From: Gammaproteobacteria bacterium HGW-Gammaproteobacteria-1
GTDB taxonomy: Bacteria > Pseudomonadota > Gammaproteobacteria > Thiohalomonadales > Thiohalomonadaceae
DNA length: 64,000 bases
NCBI GenBank assembly: GCA_002840095.1
Contig: PGZL01000010.1
Location: forward strand, 1 to 64,000
Reading direction: 5' to 3'
Every line of letters starts with the position of its first letter. Position 1 is the stretch's first letter. Position numbers and translations under genes: made by a program. The notes beneath the pieces were generated by a model. The model was not told where the DNA came from. It worked only from the letters and a program-made list of their open reading frames with translations, and did no database searches. Below, one piece after another: positions 44,229-54,174 of the stretch.

Positions 44229-44422
44229 GGGGTTGCTCCTGTTCTGGTTTTATCGAGATACCGCTGTAGCTGGTCTTCGCTGATGCGTAGCGGAGCGCGC
44301 GGACCTGTTCCCAGCTGGTGGGCCTCCAGCCGCCCGGCGCGGATTTCGCCGTAGAGGTGACCCCGGCTGATGCACAGCCGGGAGGCCACCTGAGCGATGG
44401 TGAGCAGCGGCTCGTCGCTCAT
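44039..44422 (-). CDS. Helix-turn-helix protein, probable excisionase
   Basis: A 127-residue protein. Residues 1-58 form a MerR/excisionase-type winged helix (LLTIAQVASRLCISRGHLYG, then EIRAGRLEAHQLG) that would bend DNA at attachment sites. The rest is basic and overlaps the integrase start by 190 bases in another frame, as a longer version of the xis-int overlaps of lambdoid phages. The ATG at 44422 shares a base with the ParB-like stop (TAATG). Confidence 0.75.
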   Translation of the reverse strand: MSDEPLLTIAQVASRLCISRGHLYGEIRAGRLEAHQLGTGPRAPLRISEDQLQRYLDKTRTGATPWQSENSKEAAGRPTLPTNGEVSRELNAHLTPRKRPRNGKQQSAPRPTIGCLGTEQDVYSGKH

Positions 44423-46215
44423 TACTGTGCTCCGGCTTCCTGGGAAGCGTTCCATGCGGCGCGCACGTAGGGGGGGCAGCCGACGGCCTCGGCGTGTTCG
44501 AGCAGCCATGCGCGCATGGCGTCGTCGTCGGCGCCTTCGTCGGACTTGGGTTTGCTCTTCTTCGGCGCCTTGGTTCCTTCGACCATATCGAGCAGTGCTT
44601 TCGTGTCGAGCATGTCGAGAAAGCGCGCGTCGACGCGGTAGCTATCGATAGAGATATCGAGCAGATGTGCCAGCAGAAGGACCTGATCATTATGCATGTG
44701 GCGCACAGCCAGCGCGGCGATTTCAGCGACATGGCCCAACGCACCGCCGCCTGTGAGGCATGCCTGCATGTCGGTCAGGCCCAGACGAAGTACGGTGGCG
44801 CTGTGCTCTTCGTCATCGTCGTAATAGGGCATCCCGAAGATGGCGCGCTTGTTTTCGTTGGGGTCTTCGCTGGCTTCGGCTTCGTCGTCATCCCATGATT
44901 CGATCCCGTCCGGGAAGCCGATGGCCATGTACGCCGCCAGGTTGAATTGCAGAGCAGTGTCGATGGCAACGTGTTCGGAGACGATGCGGTTACGCGCCCA
45001 GGGAGCAACGACATTACCCCTGATTTCATCGAGAAAGTCTTCACTCTCAACCGCCAAGGCCTCCTTCTCCCAGAAACAGGGCATGTTGAAGCAGGCCAAC
45101 TCGGTCATAGCGTCGTCGGCCGCGAGGAGCGCCTGTTTTTTGTGTTCGCAACCGGCGCAGCCGTCCGCATTGAAGCTAGCATCACCCAGGGAGGCGAAGT
45201 CTTGGCCATGCTTCAGGGTGCCATTCTGTTCCACGTCTTCAAGGTGGACGATGCCATCCTCGGCGACAATGACTGGCGTGGCATCCGTGCGGCGTTCGTG
45301 GGTAGATCCTTTAACGAAGGCTTTGGTGTGCTCCGATCTCTCCTGTTCATCCGCTGCTTTTTTGGCATCAAAACACTTGAGGTCTCCGCAGTAGATGGCC
45401 CCTTGCGTCCCCAGTTTGCGTGCCGCCTTGCACCCGTTGAAGCATTCGGCGGGATCGATATGGATAAATCCGAACTTCGGCGACCAGTAGGAAAACTTTC
45501 TATCTTGCGGTATGCACGGGAAGTCCTTGTTGTACAAACTAGCAATCTGATCTTGCAACTCCGGGGTCGTCGGGGCGCGTTTATGAACGACGCTGAAATC
45601 GGCGATCCAGTCGTCCACCTGACTTAGCAACTCGGGCAGGTCGTACACCTGGAGCAGGTATTTGCCGTGCGCCGGCGTCAGCTCGCCCTTGCGGATTGCA
45701 TCCTGCCCCCACTTGGGGAGCTTGAGCAGGCGGTGGATGTTGGTGAGCGCACCGCGCTGGAGCTTGATGCCTGCGGCGTTCAGGCGCTCTTCGGTTTCCT
45801 TGAGGGTCAGACCACCCTCGTTGCGCAGGCGGTCGATGACCTTGGCCAGCTCGATGGCGTTGAGGTCGGAGCGGTTGTAGTTCTCGCTGACCTGGTCGAT
45901 GAGGCGGTCGACAGGGCTTGCGTCCGGCGCTTCGTCGTCCAGCTCGGCGGCGATCACCTCTTCGCAGGCGAGCAGCGTTGCGCGGTATCTATTGGCGCCA
46001 TTCTTGATGATGTAACCGCCCAGGCCATCGCCCAGCACCTTGATGGGCTGGATCAGGCCGCGCAGTCCGCGGGCCCGGCGCTCCCTGATGCTTGCGGCGA
46101 TGCCTTCGATCTTCTCTTCGTTGAAGTCCTCGCGCGGCTGGGTGGGATCTTCCTGGAACATGCCGATGGGAAGCTCTTTCACTTCGCCCGGCTGTAATTG
46201 AATGTTATCGGTCAT
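44422..46215 (-). CDS. ParB/Spo0J-family protein with Cys-rich insert
   Basis: A 597-residue protein. Residues 15-95 form a ParB N-terminal domain (DPTQPREDFNEEKIEGIAAS, then GGYIIKNGANRYRATLLACE), followed by a helix-turn-helix region near 120-165. The middle has Cys groups (ECFNGCKAA...YCGDLKCF, DGCAGCEHK, CFNMPCF) likely to bind zinc. The C-terminus is acidic and low in similarity. Domain order resembles ParB-like proteins of prophages and integrative elements. It may regulate or partition DNA; no parA is next to it. Confidence 0.8.
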   Translation of the reverse strand: MTDNIQLQPGEVKELPIGMFQEDPTQPREDFNEEKIEGIAASIRERRARGLRGLIQPIKVLGDGLGGYIIKNGANRYRATLLACEEVIAAELDDEAPDASPVDRLIDQVSENYNRSDLNAIELAKVIDRLRNEGGLTLKETEERLNAAGIKLQRGALTNIHRLLKLPKWGQDAIRKGELTPAHGKYLLQVYDLPELLSQVDDWIADFSVVHKRAPTTPELQDQIASLYNKDFPCIPQDRKFSYWSPKFGFIHIDPAECFNGCKAARKLGTQGAIYCGDLKCFDAKKAADEQERSEHTKAFVKGSTHERRTDATPVIVAEDGIVHLEDVEQNGTLKHGQDFASLGDASFNADGCAGCEHKKQALLAADDAMTELACFNMPCFWEKEALAVESEDFLDEIRGNVVAPWARNRIVSEHVAIDTALQFNLAAYMAIGFPDGIESWDDDEAEASEDPNENKRAIFGMPYYDDDEEHSATVLRLGLTDMQACLTGGGALGHVAEIAALAVRHMHNDQVLLLAHLLDISIDSYRVDARFLDMLDTKALLDMVEGTKAPKKSKPKSDEGADDDAMRAWLLEHAEAVGCPPYVRAAWNASQEAGAQ

Positions 46216-48249: not shown

Positions 48250-48621
48250 TTATCCGGCGGTTCTCTTGCGGTAGATGTAGGCGGCGTGGGTGTCATGCAC
48301 CATCTCGTCGATCCTGGCGCGCGCCTCCGGCGTTAGGGCTTTGTACTCGTTCAGCCAGCCGGCCACTTCGGGCGGGTAGAACAGGTCGGCTACCGTGATT
48401 TTTCTATGCAGGAGCTTGCCGAGCGCTACGGCCAGGCGCTCCAGGGTGTCCTGGGTGTAGCCCTGATTGTGTTCGATGCGCTTGATGGCGGTATGCGACA
48501 GGGGAGGGACGCAGCGATCGGCCAGTTCACGCAGGGAGAGATCGGCTTCCTCTCGCAGGGCGTGCACGTTGACGCCGGGCGGCTCGGTGATGGTGTACGG
48601 GTAGACGCTTTGCCGTTTCAT
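48250..48621 (-). CDS. XRE-family repressor (CI-like)
   Basis: A 123-residue protein with a helix-turn-helix near residues 22-62 (LREEADLSLRELADRCVPPL, then SHTAIKRIEHNQGYTQDTLE) and an extra helical C-terminus. It has no peptidase domain, so induction is not by LexA-type self-cleavage. ATG 48621 is used, but the frame is open up to 48804 and a longer form is possible; the ribosome site is weak, which may mean leaderless or regulated translation. It is divergent from the Cro-like gene. Confidence 0.75.
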   Translation of the reverse strand: MKRQSVYPYTITEPPGVNVHALREEADLSLRELADRCVPPLSHTAIKRIEHNQGYTQDTLERLAVALGKLLHRKITVADLFYPPEVAGWLNEYKALTPEARARIDEMVHDTHAAYIYRKRTAG

Positions 48622-48686
48622 GCGCTTAGGGTCGCAGACCATGGGCGCGGCAGGCAGACCATTTTTAGTGCCATTTTTTGGCCACT

Positions 48687-48746
48687 CTGGAACTATGAGG
48701 TTTCCCATTCGGCGACAGGGGGGCGTCTCCCTACTGTTCCGAGACG
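48687..48746. promoter_or_regulatory. Immunity-region repeats between repressor and Cro-like genes
   Basis: CTGGAACTATGAG at 48687-48699 is the inverted copy of the right half of the operator-like sites at 48100 and 53395. At 48724-48746 the palindrome CGTCTC-N11-GAGACG gives a further candidate operator. No strong promoter hexamers could be fixed here. Confidence 0.45.
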
Positions 48747-48793
48747 GGGCGTTCATGGTTCCAATGCGGGCGTAATTCAGGGGATTTAGGTTC

Positions 48794-49024
48794 ATGTTGA
48801 TCACTCCGTTTCAGTTGATGCTCCGACAGAAGGTAGTCCCTCCTGCCCAGATCAGGCAAGCGACCTCGTGCAGCAGGAGCACCCTGTGGCGTTGGCAGAA
48901 GGGGGCGAGTTTTCCCGAGAAGCCGCAGGCAGAGGCGTTGATCGCGCTGTTCTCCGAGGCGGGGCAGGAGTTGGATTTCAACGGGATTTATCAGGCGTCG
49001 GTCGATGTGGGGGATGAAAAGTAA
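48794..49024 (+). CDS. Cro-like regulator
   Basis: A 76-residue protein with a helix-turn-helix (VPPAQIRQATSCSRSTLWRW, then QKGASFPEKPQAEALIALF). It is the first gene of the rightward transcript, divergent from the repressor, which is the place of cro. It ends one base before the next ATG, so the two are coupled. Its operator is not proven. Confidence 0.75.
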   Translation: MLITPFQLMLRQKVVPPAQIRQATSCSRSTLWRWQKGASFPEKPQAEALIALFSEAGQELDFNGIYQASVDVGDEK

Positions 49025-49309
49025 ATGGATGATTTGACCCTCGTCGACACGCGGCCAGTCCGGCGCTTCGGTGCGCCGGCTGGAATTGGCGACTATGCCG
49101 CATGGCTGGAGCAGCGCTACCGGGAATGCCAGACGCTGGACAGCGGCAAGGTGATCTACTTCGGGGTGGCGCAGCACATCAACGCGATGATTCATGCCGC
49201 GCAGACGCGCGGCCAGCGCCTGGCGGCTTACGGCCCGTATGCCGGCGCCGCGGCCGCTGTCATCGAGAGATTGAGCGGCGGCACCGTCGACGTGGATGTG
49301 CTCGCATGA
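49025..49309 (+). CDS. Small hypothetical replication-region protein
   Basis: A 94-residue protein (MDDLTLVDTRPVRRFGAPA) with a helical middle (WLEQRYRECQTLDSGKVIY). I do not recognise the family. It starts directly after the Cro-like stop and overlaps the primase start by 4 bases (ATGA), so it belongs to the replication operon. Confidence 0.6.
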   Translation: MDDLTLVDTRPVRRFGAPAGIGDYAAWLEQRYRECQTLDSGKVIYFGVAQHINAMIHAAQTRGQRLAAYGPYAGAAAAVIERLSGGTVDVDVLA

Positions 49310-52300
49310 GCTGGCCCACGTCGACGGAGGATTACAAACGTCTGGCTGAGACCCTGCGCGAACTGGTCGGAGGCCGGCGCGACGTGGCGGCGCGCTACTT
49401 CGAGTTCATGGACGGCGAGCGCCTCGTGAAAGGCTGGCAGCCGTGGAAAGGGAAGAGGGTAGGGCGCGACTATCAGCCGGAGGCGGGGGAAACCGTCTGG
49501 GCCGGCAAGGATTACAAGACCGGTCATCTGGAGCGGCGCGTGCTGCGGCCGCTGTCGGTGGAAACCCTGATTACGCACCTCCGGGGCAAGGAGCGGCTGG
49601 GGGTGTACGTCCTGGACAAGGACAGCCGTTGTTCATTCCTCGCCGCCGACTTCGATGACCACGCAGGCCAGTTGGACCCCGACGCAATATGGGCGGAGGT
49701 CAAGCGGTTCTATGACGCCTGCGACGCCCACGACTGGAAGGCGCACATCGAGCGCAGCAAGTCGGGCAAGGGGTTCCACGTATGGCTGTTCTTCGATGCG
49801 CCCATCGAGGCGGCCAAGGCGCGCGCCATCGGGCGCTGGCTGTTCGAGGAGTCGCAGGCGATCCGCGAGGGTGAGGATTTTTCCACCTTCGACCGCTTTT
49901 TTCCCGCGCAATCCAAGTTGCCACCCGGCGCCAAAGGGTTCGGTAACCTGATCGGACTGCCGCTCTCCGGCTCAAAGGATTACGAGGTCGGCCGCTGCGC
50001 CTGGGTGCATCCCGAGAGCAGGAAACACATAGGCGATCCGCTGGCCTATACGCTGGCCATCCTGGAGCGGGGGCGTAATGCGGCGGGGCGGGTAGATGAG
50101 TTTATCGAGGAGTGGCAGCTCTCCATCGAGGAGCCTGGAGCCGCAGGCGGGGAATACACACCGCGAGATCCCGACAAGCCGCTGGGCGCCAAGGAAGAGT
50201 TTGAGGCCATGCTCTCCCGCTGCGCGTTCCTGCGCTGGGCGGCCGACCCTGCGCACCAGGCGCAGGTAAAGGAGCCGCTGTGGTATTCGATGGTCTCCAA
50301 TGCCTGCCGCTTCGAGGTGGACGACTGGATACACCAGGCCAGCAACCGCCATCCGGGCTATTCGTCCATCGAAACCGGCATGAAGATCGACCATGCCCGC
50401 GAAAGCAGCGGGCCGCACCGTTGCGCGAAGATTGCTGAGACGGGTTATACCGGTTGCCCGGACGGTGGCTGCAAGCTGCCCGACGGCAAGCCTGCTGCGG
50501 CGCCGGCCGGGCTCGCCGCCTGGGCGCACGCCGGCGACAAGGCGAAGCGGGGACGGGGGAACCGGACGGTTTCCGTCTCACCGGAGGAGGCCAGGCGCAG
50601 CGAGGGCGGGAACTACCCGGAGGAGCGAGAGGACTGGCCCGACGGCATCCCGCTGTACCCGGAGACGGGGCAGCCGTGGCCACAGGTCAGCCAGTCCTGG
50701 GAGATTACCAACGACGGCGTGATCCACCGAACCGAGCGGGGATCTGAGCTGATCGTCAGCAAGCCGCTATGGGTAGATGCGCTGACCCGCAACACCATCG
50801 GCACCTGGGGCGTGCGCCTACGCTTTTTCGATTTCGATTGGAAATACAAAACATGGGCTATCCCGCGCGACCGGCTGCACGAGCAGGGCGGCGCGCTGGC
50901 GCGCGAGTTGTCGGTGCTTGGCTTGCCGTTGATCCCCGGCAAGGAAAAATGGGTCTCCCGATTCATCGTGCTGCAGGAGGGCATGGTCGACAAGCGCATC
51001 CGTGCCGCAGGCCGTCTGGGCTGGTTCGACTCTGCCGAGCAGGCCCCGGTGTTTGTGATGCCCGAGCAGGTGATCGGGCAGTCGCGGGAGGAGATTGTCT
51101 ACCAGCCCGACGCTTACACGCCGGCGGCGGAGACGCTGCATTGGCAGGGCACCCTGGCCGAGTGGCAGCAGGGAGTGGCGGCGCAGTGCCGAGGTAATCC
51201 GGTGCTGATGTTCGGTGTGATGGTCGCGCTGGCGGGGCCGTTGCTGAAGCCATGCCAGGAACAGAGCGGCGGATTCCACCTCTACGGCACGACAACCGGC
51301 GGCAAAACCACTACCGCCCAGTGTGCGGCCTCCGTGTGGGGCTGCGGCGCCGATCCGCAGGAGGGCGCCGAGGTCACCAGCATCCGCAAGTGGTACTCCA
51401 CCGGCAACGCACTGGAGAGCGTTGCCGAGCTGCACAACGACACGCTGCTGCCCCTAGACGAGATCAGCGAGGTCGACCCTCAGGAGCTGGGGCGCATCAT
51501 CTACCAGCTGGCCGGCGGACTGGCCAAGGGCCGCTCCAATGCCTCGGGCGGACTGCGCGCGCAGAAAAGCTGGCGTCTGATGTTTCTCAGCACCGGCGAG
51601 AAGAGTGTGCGGCAGATGCTGGGGCAGGTGGGGCAGGAGGCCAAGGGCGGCCAGCGCGTGCGCATGCCCGATATCCCCGCAGACGACACCACCACCGGGC
51701 AGCGGTCCATCGTGGTGGACTCCCACGGGAAGGACGCCAAGGATTTTGTCCAGGAACTGAAGGCGGCGTGTTCGCGCTCCTACGGGCTCGCCGGCCCGAC
51801 GTTCACCGGCTACCTCATCGCCCAGGCAGTTGCGCGCGGCTGGTCTGTTTTCTCCGGCGAGCTGCGCGAGGAGTTGCGTCAGCTGGAAAAACAGCTGGCA
51901 ATGACAAACCCGCTCATCAACAAAGCCGACCCCACCAACAAACCAATCGAGATGGCGCCTGAGGAACGCCGCGTGTTGCGGCGGCTCTCGCTGGTGGCCT
52001 TGGCAGGGATGCATGCTCTACATGCCGGCATCGTGGATTGGTCGATCGGCGAGATTTTGCAGGCCGTGACCAACATCCGCGACCGCTGGCTGACGGAGCA
52101 GGGCGAGGAGAAGAGCGAGGCTGACCGCGGCCTGGCGCACCTGCGCGGTCAGCTGATTGCGCAGGCCGACCGCATCCGCCCCATCGACTCCAACAGCTCG
52201 GCCTATCGCAACATCGTTGGTTTCCGCTCGACCGAGTACTACATGCTCACCGAGCACGGACTGCGGGAGTTGTCCGGCGAGTTCGACGTGCGCAACATCC

Positions 52301-52539
52301 TCAACCACCTGAAGTCCGCCGGTCACCTGTGGCACGACAGCGGACGCCTGACGCGCAAGAGCCCCAAGATCGAGGGCTACGGCAACCACCGGCTGAACCT
52401 CTATTGGATCAGCCTGAACTTTATGGGCAAGGCGGATGTGTCAATGACGCAGGAGGATCAGGCGGTACGCAAGCCTGAGGCGGGGCCGCAGCCGCCGCAA
52501 GCACCGCTGCTGACTGACGAAGACTGGATTCCGTTTTAG
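49306..52539 (+). CDS. Primase-helicase: AEP primase domain plus DUF927 ATPase
   Basis: A 1077-residue replication protein. Residues about 90-250 form an archaeo-eukaryotic primase domain of the TOTE type: CSFLAADFDDHAGQ near 108-121 (catalytic hDhD), SGKGFHVWLFFDAP near 153-166 and GFGNLIGLPLSGSKDY near 207-222. A Cys/His stretch (HRCAKIAETGYTGCPDGGCK) follows near 370-390. The DUF927 ATPase has Walker A FHLYGTTTGGKTTTAQ near 657-672 and acidic LLPLDEISEVDP near 713-724. It probably initiates phage replication. The ATG at 49306 overlaps the upstream gene. Confidence 0.85.
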   Translation: MSWPTSTEDYKRLAETLRELVGGRRDVAARYFEFMDGERLVKGWQPWKGKRVGRDYQPEAGETVWAGKDYKTGHLERRVLRPLSVETLITHLRGKERLGVYVLDKDSRCSFLAADFDDHAGQLDPDAIWAEVKRFYDACDAHDWKAHIERSKSGKGFHVWLFFDAPIEAAKARAIGRWLFEESQAIREGEDFSTFDRFFPAQSKLPPGAKGFGNLIGLPLSGSKDYEVGRCAWVHPESRKHIGDPLAYTLAILERGRNAAGRVDEFIEEWQLSIEEPGAAGGEYTPRDPDKPLGAKEEFEAMLSRCAFLRWAADPAHQAQVKEPLWYSMVSNACRFEVDDWIHQASNRHPGYSSIETGMKIDHARESSGPHRCAKIAETGYTGCPDGGCKLPDGKPAAAPAGLAAWAHAGDKAKRGRGNRTVSVSPEEARRSEGGNYPEEREDWPDGIPLYPETGQPWPQVSQSWEITNDGVIHRTERGSELIVSKPLWVDALTRNTIGTWGVRLRFFDFDWKYKTWAIPRDRLHEQGGALARELSVLGLPLIPGKEKWVSRFIVLQEGMVDKRIRAAGRLGWFDSAEQAPVFVMPEQVIGQSREEIVYQPDAYTPAAETLHWQGTLAEWQQGVAAQCRGNPVLMFGVMVALAGPLLKPCQEQSGGFHLYGTTTGGKTTTAQCAASVWGCGADPQEGAEVTSIRKWYSTGNALESVAELHNDTLLPLDEISEVDPQELGRIIYQLAGGLAKGRSNASGGLRAQKSWRLMFLSTGEKSVRQMLGQVGQEAKGGQRVRMPDIPADDTTTGQRSIVVDSHGKDAKDFVQELKAACSRSYGLAGPTFTGYLIAQAVARGWSVFSGELREELRQLEKQLAMTNPLINKADPTNKPIEMAPEERRVLRRLSLVALAGMHALHAGIVDWSIGEILQAVTNIRDRWLTEQGEEKSEADRGLAHLRGQLIAQADRIRPIDSNSSAYRNIVGFRSTEYYMLTEHGLRELSGEFDVRNILNHLKSAGHLWHDSGRLTRKSPKIEGYGNHRLNLYWISLNFMGKADVSMTQEDQAVRKPEAGPQPPQAPLLTDEDWIPF

Positions 52540-52733
52540 AACCTACCCCAGCGGATCAGGCGGTAGGCGGCCAACAGCCGCAGGACTGACCTGGGGCAGC
52601 GGCTGCGCCCCTGGTTCCAGTTCTTGACGTTACCGTATGGCTCACGCAGCCACCGCGCCGCCGCGCCCAGATCAAGGCCGAGGCGGCGGCAGCGCCGCGC
52701 AAAGGGTGTGTTGTGGTGTCGGTTGCGTTTCAT
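52536..52733 (-). CDS. Small HTH-like protein, antisense to the primase end
   Basis: A 65-residue basic protein (MKRNRHHNTPFARRCRRLG) with LDLGAAARWLREPYGNVKNW near residues 20-39, then GRSRCPRSVLRLLAAYRL, which resembles small phage helix-turn-helix proteins. An ATG five codons upstream (52748) is possible. It converges on the primase gene and overlaps its last 4 bases. It lies downstream of a leftward promoter at 52963-52991. Confidence 0.6.
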   Translation of the reverse strand: MKRNRHHNTPFARRCRRLGLDLGAAARWLREPYGNVKNWNQGRSRCPRSVLRLLAAYRLIRWGRF

Positions 52734-52809
52734 GGTGGGCGCGATCATAGATCGCCCGGCTGCATTATGGTAATCACTGGCTCCCCGGCATCGCCGGGGC
52801 CTATCTGCA

Positions 52810-52866
52810 TCAGGAGCCCGACACGGCGCGGCTGGCGCCCTCTCCCTTAAAATCGGACTTGGCCAT
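52810..52866 (-). CDS. 18-residue leader-peptide-like ORF
   Basis: ATG 52866 with an AGGAG site 7 bases upstream opens an ORF reading MAKSDFKGEGASRAVSGS, ended by TGA. A GC-rich hairpin follows 11 bases after it, then the HTH gene at 52733. The layout resembles a leader peptide with attenuator, but no codon run points to a given amino acid. Confidence 0.35.
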   Translation of the reverse strand: MAKSDFKGEGASRAVSGS

Positions 52867-52962
52867 GATCTAGCTCCTATCTAGGTTTGGTCTGAGGCCT
52901 CACGGGTGGCTGCCTGTGGGGCCTCGCTTCTTGGGAAGCGCTGTTACGCTCACCGTTCCAAC

Positions 52963-52991
52963 AATCTAGGCGCAATATGCGCCTACGTCAA
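52963..52991 (-). promoter_or_regulatory. Leftward promoter with palindromic operator in its spacer
   Basis: On the - strand TTGACG (52991-52986), a 17-base spacer and TAGATT (52968-52963). The perfect palindrome TAGGCGCA-ATA-TGCGCCTA (52967-52985) fills the spacer and touches the -10, an ideal repressor site. It would drive the 18-codon ORF and the small HTH gene. Confidence 0.7.
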
Positions 52992-53010
52992 GCCCTCGCC
53001 CAGTATTTTT

Positions 53011-53339
53011 TGTCCCGCTGTCCCGCCGCCTCAAAATGCTGCGACAACGCGATAAGCTATTGATATTAAAGAGCACGTCCCGCTTGTCCCGCTGTCCCAC
53101 CGCAAAATGCACACACAGATAACCGCACTCCTTGACGTAAGCGGCCAGGGGTCCGGGGGAGCGAGGGGATAAAGATTACTCAAGGAGGGCGGGACAGCGG
53201 GACAAGCGGGACAGCCCGTTACCTGATAGCGGCAAAGGGATGAGGCGGCGCGGCGATAATAATTAGTTGTGACAGTCATTTAGACCACTCAATAACTAGG
53301 CCGCCAAGCCTCCCGGAAGCCCCTCAGGCGCTGTCCCGC
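53011..53339. repeat. TGTCCCGC iteron cluster (candidate replication origin)
   Basis: TGTCCCGC occurs in tandem at 53011-53026; a triplet with one-base variants spans 53076-53100; its inverted triplet (GCGGGACA, GCGGGACA, A, GCGGGACA) spans 53189-53213; another copy lies at 53332-53339. The two triplets are inverted copies matching at 23 of 25 bases, 88 bases apart. Position just after the primase gene favours an origin role. Confidence 0.7.
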
Positions 53340-53394
53340 CCCCTGGGAGCCTCGGTGAGACAGCCGGGACAACCCCGCGTCCTAGGCGTCCGCA

Positions 53395-53426
53395 GTGTTG
53401 CGCTCATAGTTCCGGCATGCTAAAAA
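53395..53426 (+). promoter_or_regulatory. Operator-like site overlapping a late-region promoter
   Basis: Bases 53395-53415 match the site at 48100-48120 at 18 of 21 positions and share the first 12 bases with the inverted site at 48132-48152. Within it TTGCGC (53398-53403) pairs with TAAAAA (53421-53426) over 17 bases, with a TG extension before the -10. It lies 90 bases upstream of the first late gene. Confidence 0.6.
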
Positions 53427-53511
53427 GACCCGCAATGAGGTTCAGGGGGACCGGTTCGCGGTCAATCAGCGGTTATCAGCCGGGCGAGCGCCCGGCCAGG
53501 AGGGCGGAGCG

Positions 53512-54174
53512 GTGGCAGGCGGCGGGCGCAGGGCTGGAGCAGGACGGCCGGAGGGTGGCATCAGCCAGGCCCGCCGCCTGCTGGTGGCCGCGCTAAATCG
53601 AGGCCTGGCCATTGCTGGACGCGAGAAGGGGCTAAAGGGCAGCGAGGAGGAGGTAGCTACCGAGTCCGCCGCCCAGATTGCCGCCGACATGATCCGGTCA
53701 GGCCGTGGCGATGAGGTGCTGAAGCTGTACGCCGTTGCGGCGCCGAAGGGCGACGAGGACGGCGGCCAGAAGGGCGGACGTTCCGCACTGCTGGACGCCC
53801 TAACGCGCCTGCCTGGCGCCATCGAGGCACCTCAGGCGTCCCGCATTCCCGACAACGACGAACAAACACCAACAAAATCAGAAGATTATGCTAGATGCTC
53901 TACTGATACCCAATCAGGCGTACACCTGCGCGACGCCCCCGAGCCACCCTTTGAGGGCATGTTCTTCCAGCCGCAACCGCTCCTGTTCGCGCCTTCGCTG
54001 TTGCCTGCTGCTGCTGGCCAGGGCGCGCACGATGGGCAGGGGAGCAGGGCGCCTGCCACCCCCCCCACCCCCCCCCACGCGGAGCCGTCCCCAGCTATAG
54101 GCCTGCGCGGCGAAAATTTTGAAAAAAACGAGTCAGCTCCCCTGGAGCAGGTTCACGCCGGAGGTTCCCGATGA
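53512..54174 (+). CDS. Putative terminase small subunit
   Basis: A 220-residue protein from GTG 53512 with an AGGAGGGCGGAG site upstream. The start (MAGGGRRAGAGRPEGGISQA) resembles the GRP-type N-termini of small terminases, and a helical domain follows to residue 110. The last 100 residues are Pro/Ala-rich and unstructured, and include a C8-A-C9 base tract (54059-54076). The assignment rests on the position before the large terminase. Its TGA is the only in-frame stop before the large subunit. Confidence 0.5.
   Translation: MAGGGRRAGAGRPEGGISQARRLLVAALNRGLAIAGREKGLKGSEEEVATESAAQIAADMIRSGRGDEVLKLYAVAAPKGDEDGGQKGGRSALLDALTRLPGAIEAPQASRIPDNDEQTPTKSEDYARCSTDTQSGVHLRDAPEPPFEGMFFQPQPLLFAPSLLPAAAGQGAHDGQGSRAPATPPTPPHAEPSPAIGLRGENFEKNESAPLEQVHAGGSR

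Follow-up and report, generated by a model that had tools for sequence, protein, structure and literature searches.

What is a leftward transcription unit doing behind the rightward primase-helicase gene of a gammaproteobacterial prophage? The question arises from a stretch of 64,000 nucleotides (contig PGZL01000010.1), called the window below, in which such a unit occupies positions 52536-52991 of the minus strand. The original prediction read it as an autoregulated small regulator behind a leader peptide, or else as antisense control of replication. We hold with moderate confidence a different overall reading, i.e., that the unit is a moron-like cassette inserted between the prophage primase-helicase gene and the probable iteron origin of the same prophage.

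Prophage setting and contents of the leftward unit

The left part of the prophage falls within the window and carries an integrase, a ParB-like gene, an HTH repressor-like protein, an excisionase/AlpA-like small protein and the primase-helicase (Pfam and PHROGs scans). The same prophage also has a terminase large subunit, a lysozyme-like gene and a P22-type portal, and is therefore probably not a plain satellite. Terminase and portal were found while no capsid or tail gene was named by PHROGs among the ORFs scanned, and the virion seems unusual. From 59.7 kb to about 83 kb the same contig (G000:C29, L150) holds long prophage ORFs, among them one of about 2100 codons; PHROG matches are few or absent there, and most of the ORFs scanned had none. 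We found no close relative of the prophage, the best helicase match being at about 41%.

The primase-helicase ORF, whose real start may be further inside, contains both AEP-TOTE (Pfam, 1.4e-45) and DUF927 (1.2e-62), and its matches among PDB sequences are 8tch, "Pathogenicity island protein" (3.5e-16), and 5dgk, "Active helicase" (2e-12). A structure model of the helicase built from 4 sequences was poor (pLDDT about 45; 44.7). The features of this region are as follows.

44422-46215: ParB-like gene
48250-48804: main repressor of the prophage
49102-52539, plus strand: AEP primase fused to DUF927 helicase, a relative of SaPI Rep and SCC Cch (Pfam and PDB sequence matches)
52536-52991, minus strand: the leftward unit as a whole
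52963-52991, minus strand: promoter P1, TTGACG-17-TAGATT (consensus scan, 9 of 12)
52967-52985, no strand: perfect palindrome TAGGCGCA-TAT-TGCGCCTA in the P1 spacer (sequence inspection, palindrome scans)
52954-52934 and 52925-52894, minus strand: two predicted leader-RNA hairpins (fold z = -3.2)
52810-52866, minus strand: 18-codon ORF MAKSDFKGEGASRAVSGS, with AGGAG at 52878-52874
52745-52846, minus strand: DUF6573 C-terminal remnant GRGRQPRRVGLLMQIGPGDAGEPVITIMQPGDL, with an in-frame stop immediately upstream
52783-52799, minus strand: GC-rich hairpin CCCCGGC-GAT-GCCGGGG, in GPGDAGEP codons and without a T-run
52744-52773, minus strand: promoter P2, TTACCA-18-TATGAT (consensus scan, 9 of 12)
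52741-52755, no strand: second palindrome GCGATC-TAT-GATCGC over the P2 -10 (sequence inspection)
52536-52733, minus strand: 65-residue basic XRE/HTH-like ORF, near-leaderless behind P2, its 3' end overlapping the primase stop

P2, the DUF6573 remnant and the leader hairpins had escaped the original prediction. Each element that it did describe is present, including P1 on the minus strand, the perfect 19-nt palindrome in the P1 spacer, the second palindrome and the 18-codon ORF with its AGGAG. P1, which had been called strong, is graded moderate because its consensus score is 9 of 12. In terms of consensus match only, the two promoter-like sites in 1.3 kb compare with 0.3 +/- 0.7 in shuffles. 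P1 is the sole promoter-like site, among 16 in the 64 kb, with an 8-nt-arm palindrome inside its spacer; such palindromes number 33 across the window versus about 13 in shuffles. Allowing up to 2 mismatches, the P1 palindrome has one other site in its own genome, with 2 mismatches. The palindrome is a possible operator. As an operator of the main prophage repressor it was rejected, there being no second site near that gene.

The start codon of the 65-residue ORF comes 10 nt after the -10 of P2, which falls inside the second palindrome. This ORF and the primase gene converge, as originally predicted, and their stop codons overlap (primase stop 52537-52539); the accompanying claim that the protein is HTH-like is weakly but consistently borne out, and unproven. 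Of the six frames this one has the best codon use, and 2 of 5000 shuffles surpassed it, but measured against real genes in the window it ranks at about the 5th percentile. Pfam assigned no family, HTH included, at E up to 1, and a PDB sequence search gave chance-like matches only; the HTH queries took 52730 (residue 2) or 52748 as their first position, whereas the ORF itself starts with the ATG at 52733. A single-sequence model of low confidence (pLDDT 65) has a four-helix layout, and its best alignments are with HTH proteins, namely 2ppx (Z 3.6, rmsd 3.8 over 56 residues) followed by MqsA, HigA2 and an arbitrium antirepressor (Z 2.8-3.2), while Foldseek returned no match under E 8 for this model. 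A scan of 398 genomes gave 15 other matches at E up to 0.01, and the loci of 9 of these were inspected. Two proteins from the inspected loci, taken further, are XRE-like by Pfam, with 33-37% aligned identity around VKNWxQGR; several of the others turned out to be chance frames within other genes or to bear stops. Searches of IMG/VR, 94 other related genomes, phages and plasmids yielded no relative at useful E-values. The VKNWxQGR recognition-helix region and the four-helix layout resemble those of XRE/HigA/MqsA-type HTH proteins (2ppx, 5j9i, 3gn5), whereas the protein here is highly basic, 65 residues long and without a Pfam match. From its sequence and the model, HTH-like is the best reading of this ORF.

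Read in the right frame, the DNA before the HTH-like gene gives the tail of DUF6573, a plasmid-borne family whose function is unknown; no paper naming it was found in the literature searched. It follows that the 18-codon ORF overlaps this tail out of phase and that the GC-rich hairpin, which is present at 52799-52783, has a meaning other than the one proposed for it, being coding DNA for the conserved GPGDAGEP of DUF6573. The Pfam match (E 5.7e-6; 26.9 bits, the cut-off being 27) covers model positions 114-137 of 138, short of the whole-protein score above 27 bits and full-length domain that mark a member, and we class the gene as a remnant since a stop codon immediately precedes GRG. The last 33 codons, GRG..PR.V.L...IGPGDAGEPVITIMQP, are common to this locus and DUF6573 (PF20213) of Xanthomonas plasmids and of plasmids that we take to be PromA-like, whereas this locus lacks the first three quarters of the protein. 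Over its 33 residues the tail shows 69-73% identity with three plasmid proteins and 52-58% with three proteins of other genomes, and in 24 codons it differs from four plasmid loci by 9-11 synonymous and 4-6 non-synonymous changes. When the unit was compared with plasmids by blastn it matched the 3' ends of DUF6573 genes (best E 8e-6, 82% over 56 nt), and among the matches listed (20 of 66 records) the alignment is confined to the DUF6573 part. DUF6573 matches occur in 18 of 369 genomes of the class, with this remnant as the sole one in its own genome.

The truncation raises the alternative that the whole unit is decaying DNA, i.e., a scrap of DUF6573 pseudogene in which the HTH-like ORF and promoter are chance remains and nothing is produced. 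A DUF6573 gene cut to 33 codons with a stop immediately upstream and an HTH-like ORF lacking high-confidence relatives are what such decay would leave, yet chance remains would hardly account for codon use that surpasses all but 2 of 5000 shuffles in the best of six frames, nor for two palindrome-bearing promoter-like sites, which exceed expectation. We regard this explanation as unlikely.

Probable iterons beside the unit and repeat arrays behind other DUF927 genes

Next to the unit, and missed by the original prediction, is a repeat array (53011-53371) that starts 19 nt upstream of P1 and 471 nt past the helicase stop. It consists of 7 exact and 3 one-mismatch copies of GCGGGACA in opposed clusters, in the order five minus, three plus and then one of each strand.

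53011-53026, minus strand: iterons 1-2, GCGGGACA twice
53030-53076, no strand: A+T-richer stretch, 60% AT, candidate melting site
53076-53100, minus strand: iterons 3-5, GCGGGACG, GCGGGACA and GTGGGACA
53189-53213, plus strand: iterons 6-8, GCGGGACA three times, in the opposite orientation to iterons 1-5
53332-53371, both strands: outlying iterons 9 (minus, GCGGGACA) and 10 (plus, CCGGGACA)

No other 8-mer in the 64-kb window has at least 6 non-overlapping copies within 400 nt, and 7 of the 8 exact copies of GCGGGACA in the window lie within 329 nt. The 84-nt centre between the two strongest iteron sets is 45% AT and the 47-nt left gap 60%.

By analogy with known replicons, the iterons are quite likely a replication origin with the AEP-DUF927 protein as its initiator. 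According to PMC7581432, SaPI origins lie just downstream of rep, the C-terminal domain of Rep recognises iterons, and Cch belongs to the DUF927 group. E. coli PICIs have a pri-rep-ori layout with two iteron sets flanking an AT-rich region, for which PMC6092414 gives a plasmid-maintenance test. The locus resembles the SaPI/PICI replicon (SaPIbov1, EcCICFT073) in having a DUF927-type Rep, a fused or adjacent primase and opposed iteron sets downstream of rep. Its DUF927/SaPIbov1-type Rep, fused primase and iterons 3' of rep characterise the replicon, as distinct from the element, as one of SaPI/PICI type. It differs in that the element carries a terminase large subunit, a portal and a lysozyme-like gene of its own, in that a 471-nt cassette parts the helicase from the iterons, and in its weak AT-rich centre. 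A second precedent is SCCmec, where Cch2 binds direct repeats downstream of its own operon and Cch is matched in sequence by the protein here (5dgk, 2e-12); in contrast, the primase is fused to the helicase in our case and the repeats are 8-9 nt GCGGGACA, not AAGTG. Following SaPI Rep, the E. coli PICIs and SCC Cch/Cch2, the AEP-DUF927 protein would probably bind the GCGGGACA repeats via its C-terminal domain, and would then melt the nearby A+T-richer DNA, load and prime.

We looked for similar arrays behind other DUF927 genes. The cellular set comprised 67 loci, namely the window and 66 DUF927 loci (18 from one search and 48 of 49 from others), leaving out L149 (a second match in the contig of L123), G608 and G675. 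A single-sequence primase query gave no matches in IMG/VR or genome contigs, and the IMG/VR viral primase loci were recovered with an alignment query instead. The test took the most frequent 7-mer, on both strands and within 400 nt, over 1000 nt behind the helicase stop, and an array was called when at least 5 copies of one 7-mer were present and exceeded all 40 shuffles of the locus's own sequence.

A downstream array was detected in 40 of the 67 cellular loci (window included) and in 25 of 32 viral contigs from IMG/VR. The threshold of five copies is not clean, because 4 of 59 upstream regions attain it and some shuffle reaches five in 10 of the 67 loci. At least 6 copies were present downstream in 34/67 cellular loci versus 0/59 upstream, and upstream in 0/28 viral contigs. 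The short gaps between neighbouring copies are 9 nt in 84 of 127 cases. Many of the 25 viral arrays represent one related group with GCGTACC; L163-L183 mostly carry a near-identical GCGTACC array at equal distance from the stop. Private 9-nt-phased arrays, each with its own sequence, were observed in L022, L024, L026, L028, L032, L037, L103, L112, L124, L137, L141 and others. The loci in which the test detected no array (27/67 cellular, 7/32 viral) may include genuine absences as well as repeats too degenerate for exact 7-mers. One of the 40, L035, was counted although its flagged 7-mer is false, the visible array being GGCAACA, 1053 nt downstream. Covariation of helicase and iteron was not shown, complete 6-mer sharing being limited to near-identical helicases (2/2 pairs), with 6-mers shared by 0/11 pairs in the 0.4-0.7 band (L031, L035 and L038 excluded).

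These arrays also bear on the possibility that the GCGGGACA repeats, rather than forming an origin, are bound by a transcriptional regulator or serve the ParB-like protein (44422-46215) in partition. The prophage does possess the ParB-like gene, and repeats in opposed clusters are a form that operator arrays and parS-like sites can take. Against this, arrays accompany DUF927 genes in many unrelated elements, downstream and not upstream of them, and the SaPI, PICI and SCC precedents favour an origin, which makes the regulator or partition reading rather improbable.

The results make of a gap without annotation a probable replication origin that can be tested, and they suggest a simple rule, which is to seek 9-nt-phased repeats just downstream of the DUF927 helicase. 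The literature on DUF927, iterons and prophage/PICI showed this rule in no title or abstract found. With arrays in a prophage that has terminase and portal genes, and in many other DUF927 elements, the layout would widen to a general mobile-element replicon.

The unit as a proposed inserted cassette

The first repeat copy lies at most 175 nt from the helicase stop in 35 of the 40 cellular arrays and 24 of the 25 viral ones. In the window the distance is 471 nt because the leftward unit sits between helicase and array, and in the same 35 of 40 distant relatives the corresponding room is too small for such a unit. We saw no empty-site allele and therefore infer insertion from these distant relatives. 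L034 has a real 406-nt gap without this cassette. The array distances in L031 and L038 are attributable to broken primase frames; in both loci the DUF927 gene seems to resume in another frame past the stop, with iterons behind or at the end of the second frame.

Phage morons carry their own promoter and small gene or genes lodged between phage genes. The unit is similar in having its own promoter (two 9-of-12 sites, by consensus match only), and differs in that no terminator was found in 52400-53700 and one of its two genes is a remnant. The cassette would bring along a promoter of its own and, one behind the other, two genes, namely a plasmid-type DUF6573 gene decayed to its 3' end and the gene for the 65-residue XRE/HTH-like protein. 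Most likely this protein comes from a near-leaderless message of P2 and represses P2, and perhaps P1, by binding the palindromes over them. The unit is most likely cargo; the scheme as a whole, in which a DUF6573 scrap is joined by a small HTH gene that is transcribed from P2, and possibly also from P1, and autorepressed through the palindromes, is a tentative proposal to which we give somewhat less than even weight. To this extent the autoregulated small regulator of the original prediction is plausible, given the XRE-like hints from fold and sequence, the coding-like codons and the P2 -10 within a palindrome before the start, while its leader peptide is not supported.

The leader, the 18-codon frame and control of replication

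The leader peptide belongs to an alternative in which a small regulator, autoregulated, follows a translated 18-codon leader with attenuation hairpins. The AGGAG is 7 nt from the ATG, and the TGA of the 18-codon ORF overlaps an ATG in the DUF6573 frame (TGATG), which would permit translational coupling. The leader RNA (52894-52954) is also more stable than shuffles, with z = -3.2 and 0/200 shuffles equally stable. However, the 18-codon ORF overlaps the conserved C-terminal frame of DUF6573 out of phase, which makes it likelier to be debris than to encode a leader peptide; the hairpin proposed for attenuation is coding DNA and has no T-run to terminate transcription. Neither the leader nor the 18-codon peptide has a credible relative in phages, the listed plasmid matches are to the DUF6573 part, and the exact leader motif is absent from IMG/VR. 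We consider the leader-peptide alternative quite improbable; in our preferred reading, the insertion of a cassette, the 18-codon ORF and the GC-rich hairpin would be by-products of DUF6573 sequence.

One Lachnospiraceae contig matched the exact leader pattern over 19 nt and is regarded as a chance match. Rfam gave no gathering-score match in the region, leaving the leader without an Rfam family. A C4-type antisense RNA, which we presumed the leader to resemble, or another known RNA was rejected as a candidate, since the lone Rfam match (E up to 5) is on the opposite strand and below threshold.

One palindrome is about 25 nt from the first iteron, and one may imagine the cassette as a replication switch, with the HTH protein on both palindromes, its control region in common with the origin, and the P1 repressor and the iteron-bound helicase excluding each other, so as to time the change from lysogeny to replication; we assign this scheme a low probability. 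Antisense control, in which a transcript from P1 or P2 crosses the overlapping stops of the convergent genes, with no terminator found between them, and silences the primase gene, found no positive support here and is highly improbable, as most relatives, with arrays closely following the helicase, leave no room for such a unit, which is thus not a needed control.

Around the primase stop, finally, lies a direct repeat (52455-52470 and 52553-52568) with 15 of 16 positions identical, a similarity reached in 0/200 shuffles, and this repeat may mark a recombination event.
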